64,000 nucleotides of DNA from Thalassobius sp. Cn5-15 (GTDB lineage Bacteria > Pseudomonadota > Alphaproteobacteria > Rhodobacterales > Rhodobacteraceae). Every line of letters begins with the position of its first letter. Positions within the stretch are counted from its first letter, which is position 1. Below are positions 14,265 through 19,200 of the stretch, in pieces. Below the pieces are notes generated by a model. The model worked only from the letters and a program-made list of their open reading frames with translations, searched no databases and was not told the origin of the DNA. The translations under genes were made by a program, and so were the position numbers. The stretch covers positions 124,001-188,000 of the forward strand of contig NZ_JAKRGF010000003.1 in the NCBI RefSeq assembly GCF_022347685.1, read 5' to 3'.

Positions 14265-14294
14265 TGTGATCACAGTGGTGGCGGGCGTGATCAC
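14265..14294. promoter_or_regulatory. paired GTGATCAC operator, sdh promoter
   Basis: TGTGATCACA at 14265-14274 and GTGATCAC at 14287-14294 are perfect palindromes with centres 21 bp apart, about two helical turns. The flanks also match the sucC promoter (TTTGTGATCACAG ... GCGTGATCACAAA) although the bases between differ. This is a strong candidate operator; GntR-family AkgR, reported to activate TCA genes in R. sphaeroides, is one possible binder. Confidence 0.65.
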
Positions 14295-14370
14295 AAAGAC
14301 TTTTCCAAGTTTTTTGGTCAGATTTTAGAAAATGATTCTGCCGCGCAGCACGTCTAAACCGTCGTAGATG

Positions 14371-14402
14371 CAAAAACGCCCCTCCGGTGCGAAGGGGCGT
14401 TT
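14371..14402 (-). terminator. terminator after mch
   Basis: On the minus strand AACGCCCC and GGGGCGTT pair around TTCGCACCGGA-type loop sequence and are followed by a T run. It closes the mcl2-nnrU-DUF1737-mch unit before the sdh promoter. Confidence 0.8.
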
Positions 14403-14430
14403 GGCGTCGTTTTCACGTACGGAAAGCTGC

Positions 14431-14438
14431 GTGATCAC
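14431..14438. promoter_or_regulatory. additional GTGATCAC site in the mch 3' region
   Basis: CGTGATCACAG, the same palindrome as the sdh operator, lies 144 bp from the nearer member of the sdh pair, between the mch stop codon and its terminator. It could be an auxiliary site or a chance copy. Confidence 0.35.
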
Positions 14439-14458
14439 AGGGAAACCACGCCAAAACA

Positions 14459-15490
14459 TCACATCGGTATCAAGGCCCAGTAGTCCAGATCCAGCAGTAC
14501 TTCAGGCTTATACTTGCCATCTTCGCCTTTCAGATCAAAGGGTTCACCACCCTTCGTGGCCACAAGACGCAGACGAATCGCACCAACACCCGGGGCATCT
14601 GTTTTCGCCTTATCCAACACCTCGGTCCATGCCTTCACCGTGTCGCCGGAGAAGCAGGGGTTCGCATGTGCACCACCGTTCAGACCAACGATCATCTGCG
14701 CATTGGCCAGACCGTTGAAGGACAGGGCGCGCGCCATGGAAATGATGTGCCCCCCGTAAATCAAGCGCTGACCATCAGGACGGAAGGTGGCGTCGAAGTG
14801 CACTTTGGCGGTGTTCTGCCACAGGCGAGTGGCCAGCATATGCTCCGCCTCTTCGATGGTGACACCATCAACGTGGTCGATCTTCTCGCCCACTTCATAA
14901 TCACCCCAGCGGTGCGGTTCACCCGCCTGATCGAAATCATAGTTGCTGAAATCCAGACCTTCGGGGATCACCAGATCCTCTGCCGGAATGACCTGTTTCA
15001 GGTCAGGGATCACGGTTTCGGGGGCGGGCAGGTCCTGATCTTTCTTGCGCACCATGACCCAGCGTACGTATTCCAGTACCACTTCGCCCATCTGGTTGAA
15101 GCCACGGGTTTTCACCCAGACCACACCGGATTTTCCGTTGGAGTTCTGTTTGAGGCCGATCACCTCAGACACAGACCGCAGGGTATCGCCGGGGAACACC
15201 GGCTTCAGCCAGCGCCCTTCGGCATAACCGAGGTTCGCAACCGCGTTCAGCGACACATCCGGCACGGTTTTGCCAAAGACCACATGGAACGCCACCAGAT
15301 CGTCCAGCGGACTGCCTTCCAGACCGCAGTCACGCGCAAATTCATCCGAGGAATAGAGCGCATGACGCGCCGGATAGAGGGCGTGATACAGCGCGCGCTC
15401 GCCCTCAGCGACGGTGCGCGGCACCGCGTGGACGATCACGTCGCCCAGTTTGTAATCCTCAAAAAAGCGGCCTGCGTTGGTCTTTGCCAT
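14459..15490 (-). CDS. mch: mesaconyl-CoA hydratase, MaoC family
   Basis: Hydration of mesaconyl-C1-CoA to beta-methylmalyl-CoA in the ethylmalonyl-CoA pathway. The 343-residue protein has two hotdog-like halves, the length of the Rhodobacter enzyme as I recall it. Landmarks include NAGRFFEDYKLGDVI at the N-terminus, FHVVFGKTVPDVSLNAVANLGY near 95, PVFPGDTLRSVSEVIG near 120 and, in the second half, IYGGHIISMARALSFNGLANAQ with GDTVKAWTEVLD. It follows the DUF1737 gene by five bases and ends in a terminator. It is the last gene of a four-gene unit whose first gene acts two steps later in the same pathway. Confidence 0.95.
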   Translation of the reverse strand: MAKTNAGRFFEDYKLGDVIVHAVPRTVAEGERALYHALYPARHALYSSDEFARDCGLEGSPLDDLVAFHVVFGKTVPDVSLNAVANLGYAEGRWLKPVFPGDTLRSVSEVIGLKQNSNGKSGVVWVKTRGFNQMGEVVLEYVRWVMVRKKDQDLPAPETVIPDLKQVIPAEDLVIPEGLDFSNYDFDQAGEPHRWGDYEVGEKIDHVDGVTIEEAEHMLATRLWQNTAKVHFDATFRPDGQRLIYGGHIISMARALSFNGLANAQMIVGLNGGAHANPCFSGDTVKAWTEVLDKAKTDAPGVGAIRLRLVATKGGEPFDLKGEDGKYKPEVLLDLDYWALIPM

Positions 15491-15495
15491 TGTGT

Positions 15496-15699
15496 TTACT
15501 GAGCTCCCAGTTTGATGTCAGGTGTGTAGGTGCCGTCGACCTCTTTCACCACGGCCTGCCCGCACCGCATCACCCCGTTGGCTGCGTCAAAGGCATAGGT
15601 GGGATCGCCGTGCAGCTCCCAGCCTTTGTTTAGCGCGTCGGTCACTTTGTGGCAGAAGGCCGAGGTGTCGTCTTCGGTCAGCATCCGATAAAGTTTCAT
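15496..15699 (-). CDS. DUF1737 domain-containing protein
   Basis: A 67-residue protein starting MKLYRMLTEDDTSAFCHKVT. The motif LNKGWELHGDPTYAFD (long, short aromatic turns) and the C-terminal GQAVVKEV match the DUF1737 family, found as small proteins of unknown role. The ATG at 15699 has GAGG about nine bases upstream and fits family starts; an upstream in-frame start at 15717 is less likely. It sits five bases before mch, inside an ethylmalonyl-CoA pathway unit. Confidence 0.8.
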   Translation of the reverse strand: MKLYRMLTEDDTSAFCHKVTDALNKGWELHGDPTYAFDAANGVMRCGQAVVKEVDGTYTPDIKLGAQ

Positions 15700-15737
15700 G
15701 GTCGTATCCTCATTCAAACCAGCTTAGCCAATGGGCC

Positions 15738-17868: not shown

Positions 17869-17882
17869 AGTCAATAGATACA

Positions 17883-17904
17883 GGGTTTTTTGGTACAAAA
17901 ACCC
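17883..17904. promoter_or_regulatory. perfect inverted repeat in the mdh leader
   Basis: GGGTTTTT (17883-17890) and AAAAACCC (17897-17904) flank TGGTAC. It could be an operator or an RNA hairpin in the leader, about 100 bp before the mdh start. Confidence 0.4.
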
Positions 17905-18000
17905 AGTGAGACCCTGCCCGCTGCATCGCAGCACCCTTGCGCGAAAGGCCGGAAACGACTACCCCATCTCCGATTTCAAAACGGACCGGAGAGAATTTCC

Positions 18001-18963
18001 ATGGCCAGACCCAAGATTGCCCTCATCGGCGCAGGCAACATCGGTGGCACCCTTGCCCACCTCGCAGCTCTGAAAGAACTGGGCGACGTTGTCCTGTTCG
18101 ACATCGCAGAAGGCCTGCCCGAAGGCAAAGCCCTCGACATCGCGGAATCGGGCCCCTCGGAAGGGTTTGACGCAGCAATGTCCGGCACCCAGTCCTACGA
18201 GGACATCGCTGGCGCCGACGTCTGCATCGTGACCGCAGGTGTGGCACGTAAACCGGGCATGTCGCGCGACGACCTGCTGGGCATCAACCTGAAAGTGATG
18301 AAGTCGGTTGGCGAAGGCATCGCAGCCCACGCGCCCGACGCATTCGTGATCTGCATCACCAACCCGCTGGACGCGATGGTTTGGGCTCTGCAGAAATTCT
18401 CGGGTCTGCCCGCGAACAAAGTCTGCGGCATGGCTGGCGTTCTGGACTCCGCCCGTTTCCGTCACTTCCTTGCCGAAGAGTTCAACGTCTCCATGCGGGA
18501 CGTCACTGCCTTCGTTCTGGGCGGCCACGGCGACACCATGGTTCCGTCGGTTCGCTATTCGACCGTTGCCGGCATCCCCCTGCCCGACCTGATCGAAATG
18601 GGTTGGACCACGCAGGAAAAACTGGACGCCATGGTGCAGCGTACCCGTGACGGTGGCGCCGAAATCGTTGGCCTGCTGAAAACCGGCTCCGCTTACTACG
18701 CACCGGCCACAAGCGCCATCGAAATGGCCGAAGCCTACCTGAAAGATCAGAAACGCGTTCTGCCCTGCGCCGCCTACTGTGACGGTGAGATCGGTGTGAA
18801 AGACATGTATGTGGGCGTGCCCACCGTGATCGGCGCTGGTGGCATCGAGAAAGTTGTCGACATCAAGCTGAACAAAGAAGAGCAAGTGATGTTCGACAAA
18901 TCGGTAGACGCCGTTAAAGGTCTGGTCGACGCCTGTAAAGAGATTGACCCCTCGCTGGCCTAA
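18001..18963 (+). CDS. mdh: malate dehydrogenase, NAD-dependent
   Basis: Interconverts malate and oxaloacetate in the TCA cycle. The 320-residue protein is of the LDH-like bacterial type: [20 protein letters not shown] with the NAD-binding GxGxxG at the start, [17 protein letters not shown] near 80 with the substrate Arg, [11 protein letters not shown] near 120, and the catalytic [16 protein letters not shown] near 174. The ATG at 18001 has GGAGAG upstream and gives the family N-terminus; the frame from 17890 would add an unlikely leader through regulatory DNA. A strong terminator follows, so mdh is separate from sucCD. Confidence 0.97.
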
Positions 18964-18983
18964 GCCAGATAGAGCGCGCATTG

Positions 18984-19010
18984 AAGGCCCGCCATTGGCG
19001 GGCCTTTTTT
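18984..19010 (+). terminator. terminator after mdh
   Basis: AAGGCCCGCC and GGCGGGCCTT form a 10-bp stem with an ATT loop, followed by TTTT. Confidence 0.9.
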
Positions 19011-19054
19011 ATTGCGCGACCATGCGAAGACAGACAAAACAGAAAAGGTCGCCC

Positions 19055-19066
19055 GTTAGCGCTCAA
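19055..19066. promoter_or_regulatory. TTAGCGC-type element, sucC promoter
   Basis: GTTAGCGCTCAA is close to a GTTAGC-GCTAAC palindrome. It lies about 240 bp before sucC. The same core is found before sdhC and mdh; CceR is a plausible binder by analogy with R. sphaeroides. Confidence 0.45.
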
Positions 19067-19168
19067 AAGTCGCTTCACGCACCCCAAAGGCAATGAGTCG
19101 TCGGATCCATAGCCCACCCAAGAATGAGCGGCACCACAAGTCGACGGCTGTTATCACGACTTTTGATT

Positions 19169-19200
19169 TGTGATCACAGCCCTGAAATGCGTGATCACAA
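19169..19200. promoter_or_regulatory. paired GTGATCAC operator, sucC promoter
   Basis: TGTGATCACA at 19169-19178 and GTGATCACAA at 19191-19200 have centres 21 bp apart, with the same outer flanks as the pair before sdhC (TTTGTGATCACAG and GCGTGATCACAAA). It lies about 105-140 bp before the sucC start. Confidence 0.65.

Follow-up and report, generated by a model that had tools for sequence, protein, structure and literature searches.

The genome of Thalassobius sp. Cn5-15 (Rhodobacteraceae) carries two operons of the tricarboxylic acid (TCA) cycle, each preceded by a pair of short palindromes, on a 64,000-nucleotide stretch of contig NZ_JAKRGF010000003.1 (positions 124,001 to 188,000; this whole stretch is hereafter called the window). 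The succinate dehydrogenase operon is transcribed leftwards and begins with sdhC (13754–14143, minus strand), followed by sdhD (13371–13748), sdhA (11537–13357) and sdhB (10228–11010). The second run of genes is headed by sucC (19306–20499, plus strand) and continues with sucD (20505–21392), sucA (21544–24510) and sucB (24514–26022). The palindrome GTGATCAC, for which no strand is assigned, is present upstream of sdhC at 14266–14273 (nearer to the gene) and 14287–14294 (farther), with a 13-bp spacer at 14274–14286, and upstream of sucC at 19170–19177 (farther) and 19191–19198 (nearer), with a 13-bp spacer at 19178–19190. The centres are 21 bp apart in each pair, the outer flanks TTTGTGATCACAG and GCGTGATCACAAA are the same in both, and the inner spacers are unlike. 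The coordinates and the sequence thus bear out the preliminary description of this DNA, which had reported two identically arranged pairs with kept outer flanks and a differing spacer.

The paired arrangement is real and far above chance. The exact sequence GTGATCAC-N13-GTGATCAC is found twice in the 3.5-Mb genome, only before sdhC and sucC, and the reversed control not at all. Single copies of GTGATCAC number 201 genome-wide and seven in the window (including those at 14266, 14287, 14431, 19170 and 19191); by our own arithmetic (201 × 201/3.5 Mb) about 0.01 pair would be expected at one fixed spacing, versus the 2 observed, and 100 shuffles of the window gave a mean of 0.00 such pairs. One single match elsewhere in the genome (C11:9971) lies within an open reading frame and was set aside as chance. 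The reversed word CACTAGTG occurs six times genome-wide versus the 201 copies of GTGATCAC, perhaps because CTAG is rare. The word TGATCA is about threefold over-represented in the window (52 versus 17.9 expected), mainly outside the operators.

A search of relatives for the 21-bp-spaced pair and the genes that follow it revealed the exact N13 pair in 60 of the 121 genomes searched (the Cn5-15 genome included). All 60 belong to the 73 Rhodobacteraceae; no exact pair was detected in the 48 genomes of other families, and the reversed control gave 0 throughout the 121. At any spacing from 0 to 30 bp, a pair is present in 89 of 100 family genomes, the reversed control again being 0. Among the 75 pairs listed, counted by eye, the spacing is N13 in 62 and N12 in 5, and the other 8 are spread over N4, N10, N16, N19, N23 and N28; some genomes (G017, G063, G122 and G142) have N12 instead of N13 before sucC. 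Among pairs at other spacings, the one in L298/L352 was rejected as lying within a long open reading frame, and those in L297, L299, L300, L301, L357, L358 and L366 were given a brief look only.

The collected loci, of which the scan of the named collection covered at least 120 stretches, contain 159 pairs in a count that is not deduplicated (L028 and L123 are apparently one place, as are L016 and L037). Of these pairs, 78 precede sucC and 54 precede sdhC (132 together), and 27 precede neither. The last group comprises three pairs adjoining mdh in stretches that end before sucC is reached (L068, L095 and L099), one pair before a fumC-like gene (L006), two in Rhodobacteraceae with weak flanks (L093, 12.5 and below 8 bits; L151, 8.7 and 10.6 bits), and 21 in organisms outside the Rhodobacterales, judged by record title, which we regard as chance. 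The pair before the fumC-like gene (L006:1501–1529; G050:C16:228293) is a third N13 pair; the gene that starts 124 bp after it encodes Lyase_1 and FumaraseC_C domains, and this TCA cycle gene seems to have been recruited to the regulon in genome G050. A contig titled Robiginitomaculum (L098) encodes a SucC 94% identical to that of the window and has a typical pair; it is possibly a mis-binned Rhodobacteraceae contig. Two outcomes that the preliminary description had named as damaging, absence of the pair from the sdh and suc promoters of close relatives and its frequent random occurrence in the genome, were looked for and not observed.

Logos built from distinct promoters (76 of sucC and 54 of sdhC; these and the GTGAC counts are deduplicated, and promoters with less than 40 bp before the pair were left out of the logos) follow the pattern TTTGTGATCACA ... 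TGTGATCACAAA; the spacer is rich in A/T at its middle, more clearly so in sucC, and an A/T tract lies 10–14 bp downstream of the pair. The median distance from the end of the pair to the start codon is 109 bp for sucC (quartiles 107–112, n = 114) and 131.5 bp for sdhC (119.5–144, n = 88). The sdhC promoters share an element of the form C-GTGACA, 16 bp, TAt-aa; in the window, it corresponds to a −35-like GTGACA at 14201–14206 (minus strand), 59 bp from the pair, and a −10-like TATGAA at 14179–14184 (minus strand), 16 bp past GTGACA. The common element of the sucC promoters is weaker, cGTTTa with a TA-ac element 25 bp on; in the window, it begins at about 19244, with a −35-like TTAAAG at 19246–19251 and a −10-like TATATC at 19270–19275 (both plus strand). 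Relative to the starts predicted from these elements, the palindrome centres would lie at about −98 and −119 for sdhC and about −88 and −109 for sucC. A GTGAC at 40–85 bp is missing from 14 of the 88 sdhC promoters, of which four have ATGAC at 58–60 bp, one has GTGAC at 36 bp and one contains an assembly gap. In the latter promoter (L021, G040:C51), a gap of N and a repeated stretch make the distance from pair to gene look too long, and it was left out of the periodicity and distance-median analyses.

The distance between pair and promoter element was determined with a composite matrix trained on these same promoters, without position information, for N13 pairs only (86 of sdhC and 111 of sucC), and is quoted for promoters scoring at least 9 bits (66 of 86 and 75 of 111, respectively). 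The sdhC element follows the pair at 46 (one promoter), 57–60 (54), 68–70 (seven), 78 (one) or 80 bp (three), and the sucC element at 44–46 (68) or 34–35 bp (five), the remaining two being at 23 and 96 bp. From species to species, the distance in both operons shifts by about 11 bp at a time. When it is measured to the −10 elements, which lie another 22 and 25 bp on, the two operons share, by our own arithmetic, a common lattice of about 59, 70, 80, 91 and 101 bp. On the SdhC tree, where 86 of the 88 sdhC rows were used (nine unclassed; with several elements present, the one nearest to the lattice was taken), at least 11 changes of distance class and no row off the lattice were found at a tolerance of 2 bp, in a short alignment that leaves many forks open. 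When all GTGAC words were counted without choice, including strays at 22, 43 and 86 bp, 3 of 5000 random draws were equally periodic, a figure that serves as a guide only, the promoters not being independent. Class I activators such as CRP require whole-turn distances to the promoter. Because the distances seen here differ by whole helical turns, we propose that the bound protein has to be oriented towards RNA polymerase. Such repeated whole-turn shifts are an unusually clean sign, read from sequence, that an activator touches RNA polymerase; the geometry yields predictions as to which spacing mutants would be functional and which would not, and, if the proposal is true, makes the Rhodobacteraceae a natural experiment on activator phasing.

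Two further sites in the window had been pointed out in the preliminary description. The extra copy past the sdh pair does exist (14431–14438, no strand; 17.2 bits on the site matrix), but was rejected as a fixed element, since a third site no more than 400 bp past the pair occurs in just 12 of the 85 sdhC promoters, where its distance varies, and in 1 of 113 sucC promoters. Likewise, an imperfect copy with the core CTGATCAC precedes mdh (17829–17836, no strand; 10.7 bits), but it is not conserved: the best site had an intact core in 1 of 66 mdh upstream regions, and mdh was rejected as a regulon member. No sites of at least 8 bits were found before mch (0 of 58), sucA (0 of 46) or mcl2 (0 of only 4). 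The TCA cycle genes of the window are interspersed with genes resembling those of the ethylmalonyl-CoA pathway (1286–2587, 4260–6239, 14459–15490 and 16342–17367), namely ccr-like and ecm-like genes according to our own reading and a mesaconyl-CoA hydratase and an HpcH/HpaI lyase according to Pfam.

No GntR gene was present among the window reading frames read (1–30 kb). The genome contains eight FCD-type GntR genes, one of which, encoding a protein of 216 amino acids (G000:C14:9721–10368), is our candidate for the regulator. Its domains PF00392 (GntR, 49.9 bits) and PF07729 (FCD, 63.5 bits) both score above the cut-offs, its best solved relative by sequence is PDB 4p9f (E = 4.7e-21), and a relative with 77% identity is located beside sdh in L168. 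An orthologue was found in 87 of the 100 family genomes, and among 190 genomes drawn from the class there were three matches, all in Rhodobacteraceae. Counted by eye, at least 29 of the 87 genomes having the gene carry it no more than about 25 kb from a pair.

Gene and pair co-occur: of the 100 genomes, 86 have both, 10 neither, 3 the pair only and 1 the gene only (Fisher p = 1.8e-10), a pair here being one at any spacing of 0–30 bp, counted irrespective of its place in the genome. The single genome with the gene only, G048, contains two N13 pairs that each deviate at one position; one of these precedes sucC. In nine of the ten genomes with neither, the region upstream of sucC was read and no pair was seen (for G029, nothing but a 50% paralogue came up); in G012, a pair with a single mismatch lies on another contig. 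Two of these genomes, G056 and G037, fall among the pair-carrying genomes in the SucC tree and lack both the pair and the gene.

The promoter of the candidate gene itself carries the palindrome. An exact GTGATCAC stands directly before the start codon in 41 of the 51 orthologues examined (the 30 best-scoring, 20 lower-scoring ones picked by hand and one from the class-wide search, with 37 of the 87 left out), at 8–10 bp in 35 of them. A TTGAC-like −35 element is present in 39 of the 41; in 33 of these 39, its start is exactly 18 bp upstream of the palindrome, which by this placement covers the predicted −10 position. In the regulator genes of L181–L210 and L302–L322, the TTGAC box, the palindrome over the −10 position and the ATG follow one another at one stereotyped spacing. 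Transcription would then begin at or near the ATG, apparently yielding a leaderless message. Such an own-promoter site is absent from the remaining seven FCD GntR loci of the Cn5-15 genome. A single site in this position suggests self-repression, and the GntR/FCD protein is the likely binder of the palindromes.

Taken together, these data make it probable that GTGATCAC is the operator of a GntR/FCD regulator, most likely the orthologue of AkgR, with the pair activating sdh and suc and the single site mediating self-repression. Each palindrome, in its fuller form TTTGTGATCACAAA, would bind one dimer, and the two operators before sdhCDAB and sucCD-sucAB, spaced 21 bp (sometimes 20) from centre to centre, would align two dimers along the same face of the helix, where they may bind cooperatively. 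Bound about 87 to 119 bp upstream of the predicted starts in the window, the dimers would activate transcription of sdh and suc, perhaps by contacting the C-terminal domain of the RNA polymerase alpha subunit, positioned on the A/T tract that follows the pair. At its own gene, the regulator would occupy one operator that overlaps the −10 of a promoter having a good −35 element (TTGAC) and an apparently leaderless start, and would thereby repress itself. Somewhat more tentatively, though we still lean towards it, one small GntR protein could use two site grammars throughout the family, a single operator for self-repression and a two-turn pair at a turn-quantised distance to activate sdh, suc and, in one genome, fumC. 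As a GntR regulon the system is of an ordinary type, and its geometry is unusually rigid and conserved widely; operator and promoter geometry have been kept across a large family of marine and soil bacteria for a regulator of the TCA cycle. The data support the earlier suggestion of a two-turn paired operator of one regulator over both operons.

Several observations weigh against this interpretation. The own-promoter site is missing from 10 of the 51 orthologues, which are mostly divergent and some of which retain the TTGAC box, and 8 of 88 sdhC promoters have no recognisable GTGAC or ATGAC, a ninth being broken by the assembly gap. No regulator was detected in the three pair-only genomes, drafts that are 74, 77 and 91% complete. 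Genome G069, tallied as having both, has close palindromes (N5 and N14) away from sdhC and sucC, which gives a strict count of 85/10/3/2. A control GntR (L155) is also associated with the pair (73 both, 9 neither, 16 pair only, 2 gene only; p = 4e-5), and shared descent therefore explains part of the co-occurrence; in the SucC tree, which covers 60 of the 100 genomes, supported independent contrasts are too scarce to allow a test.

The association of the control could mean that another DNA-binding protein owns the palindromes and that the GntR gene co-occurs by descent only, the more so as the candidate screen covered GntR/FCD proteins only. We consider this improbable, given that the palindrome occupies one fixed place in the GntR gene's promoter in most orthologues, that discordant genomes number 4 for the candidate versus 18 for the control, that G056 and G037 lack both despite their place in the SucC tree, and that the targets listed for the R. 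sphaeroides regulator RSP_0981 in PMC4344238 match. Only slightly more credible, and still unlikely, is that the GntR/FCD protein bound at the pairs acts as a repressor of sdh and suc, either through looping or by keeping an upstream activator away. Most proteins of the GntR family are repressors, the site at the own gene is positioned like that of a repressor, and the third site in 12 of 85 sdhC promoters could serve a loop; yet the pair, about 50–60 bp upstream of the −35 element, is unable to cover it, the promoter distance is phased in both operons, and the third site is nearly absent from sucC promoters (1 of 113). That the pairs reflect chance or a general excess of TGATCA words, devoid of regulatory meaning, has a negligible probability: the excess in the window and the stray pairs in unrelated organisms (21, in a scan of at least 120 named stretches) are outweighed by the lack of pairs in shuffled windows, the reversed controls of 0 in the pair searches and the 132 of 159 pairs that precede just two operons, which effectively refute it.

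Activation by the GntR/FCD protein remains our preferred reading, and its closest counterpart is AkgR. A 2015 mBio paper (e02461-14) reportedly gives AkgR its name, equates it with RSP_0981 and describes it as a direct activator. The RSP_0981 locus number is close to sdh in R. sphaeroides, and on the basis of targets and synteny, the candidate is most likely the orthologue of AkgR (RSP_0981). PMC4344238 describes RSP_0981 as a GntR regulator and predicts that succinyl-CoA synthetase, succinate dehydrogenase and oxoglutarate dehydrogenase are under its control; the regulon is thus already known, and the pairs before sdhC and the sucCD-sucAB run coincide with these targets. The AkgR guess of the preliminary description gains indirect support from the co-occurrence, the proximity of gene and pair, the own-promoter palindrome and these targets, but mdh, before which it had noted a variant, is not supported as a conserved member. 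The literature searched, which did not include the 2015 AkgR paper itself, yielded no mention of the palindrome as an AkgR site, of the pair, of the whole-turn distances or of the own-promoter site; the change of pair-to-promoter distance in helical-turn steps is apparently new, and for the motif no novelty is claimed.

Other known systems share single features with the one described here. The LacI-type regulator CceR (RSP_1663) has overlapping predicted targets, including sdh and mdh, in PMC4344238, but its printed motif there, the inverted repeat [A/G/T]GTT-N6-8-AAC[A/C/T], differs from the conserved GTGATCAC pair (CceR sites elsewhere in the promoters were not sought). The FCD GntR proteins of the McbR/YncC type (PDB 4p9f) are the closest solved sequence relatives of the candidate and have other targets, the likeness being one of protein sequence. 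Class I activators such as CRP obey a similar whole-turn rule with respect to the promoter. However, the CRP site is TGTGA-N6-TCACA, with a 6-bp gap that is absent from the GTGATCAC operators, whereas the system before sdh and suc would employ another protein family and two stacked operators placed further upstream.

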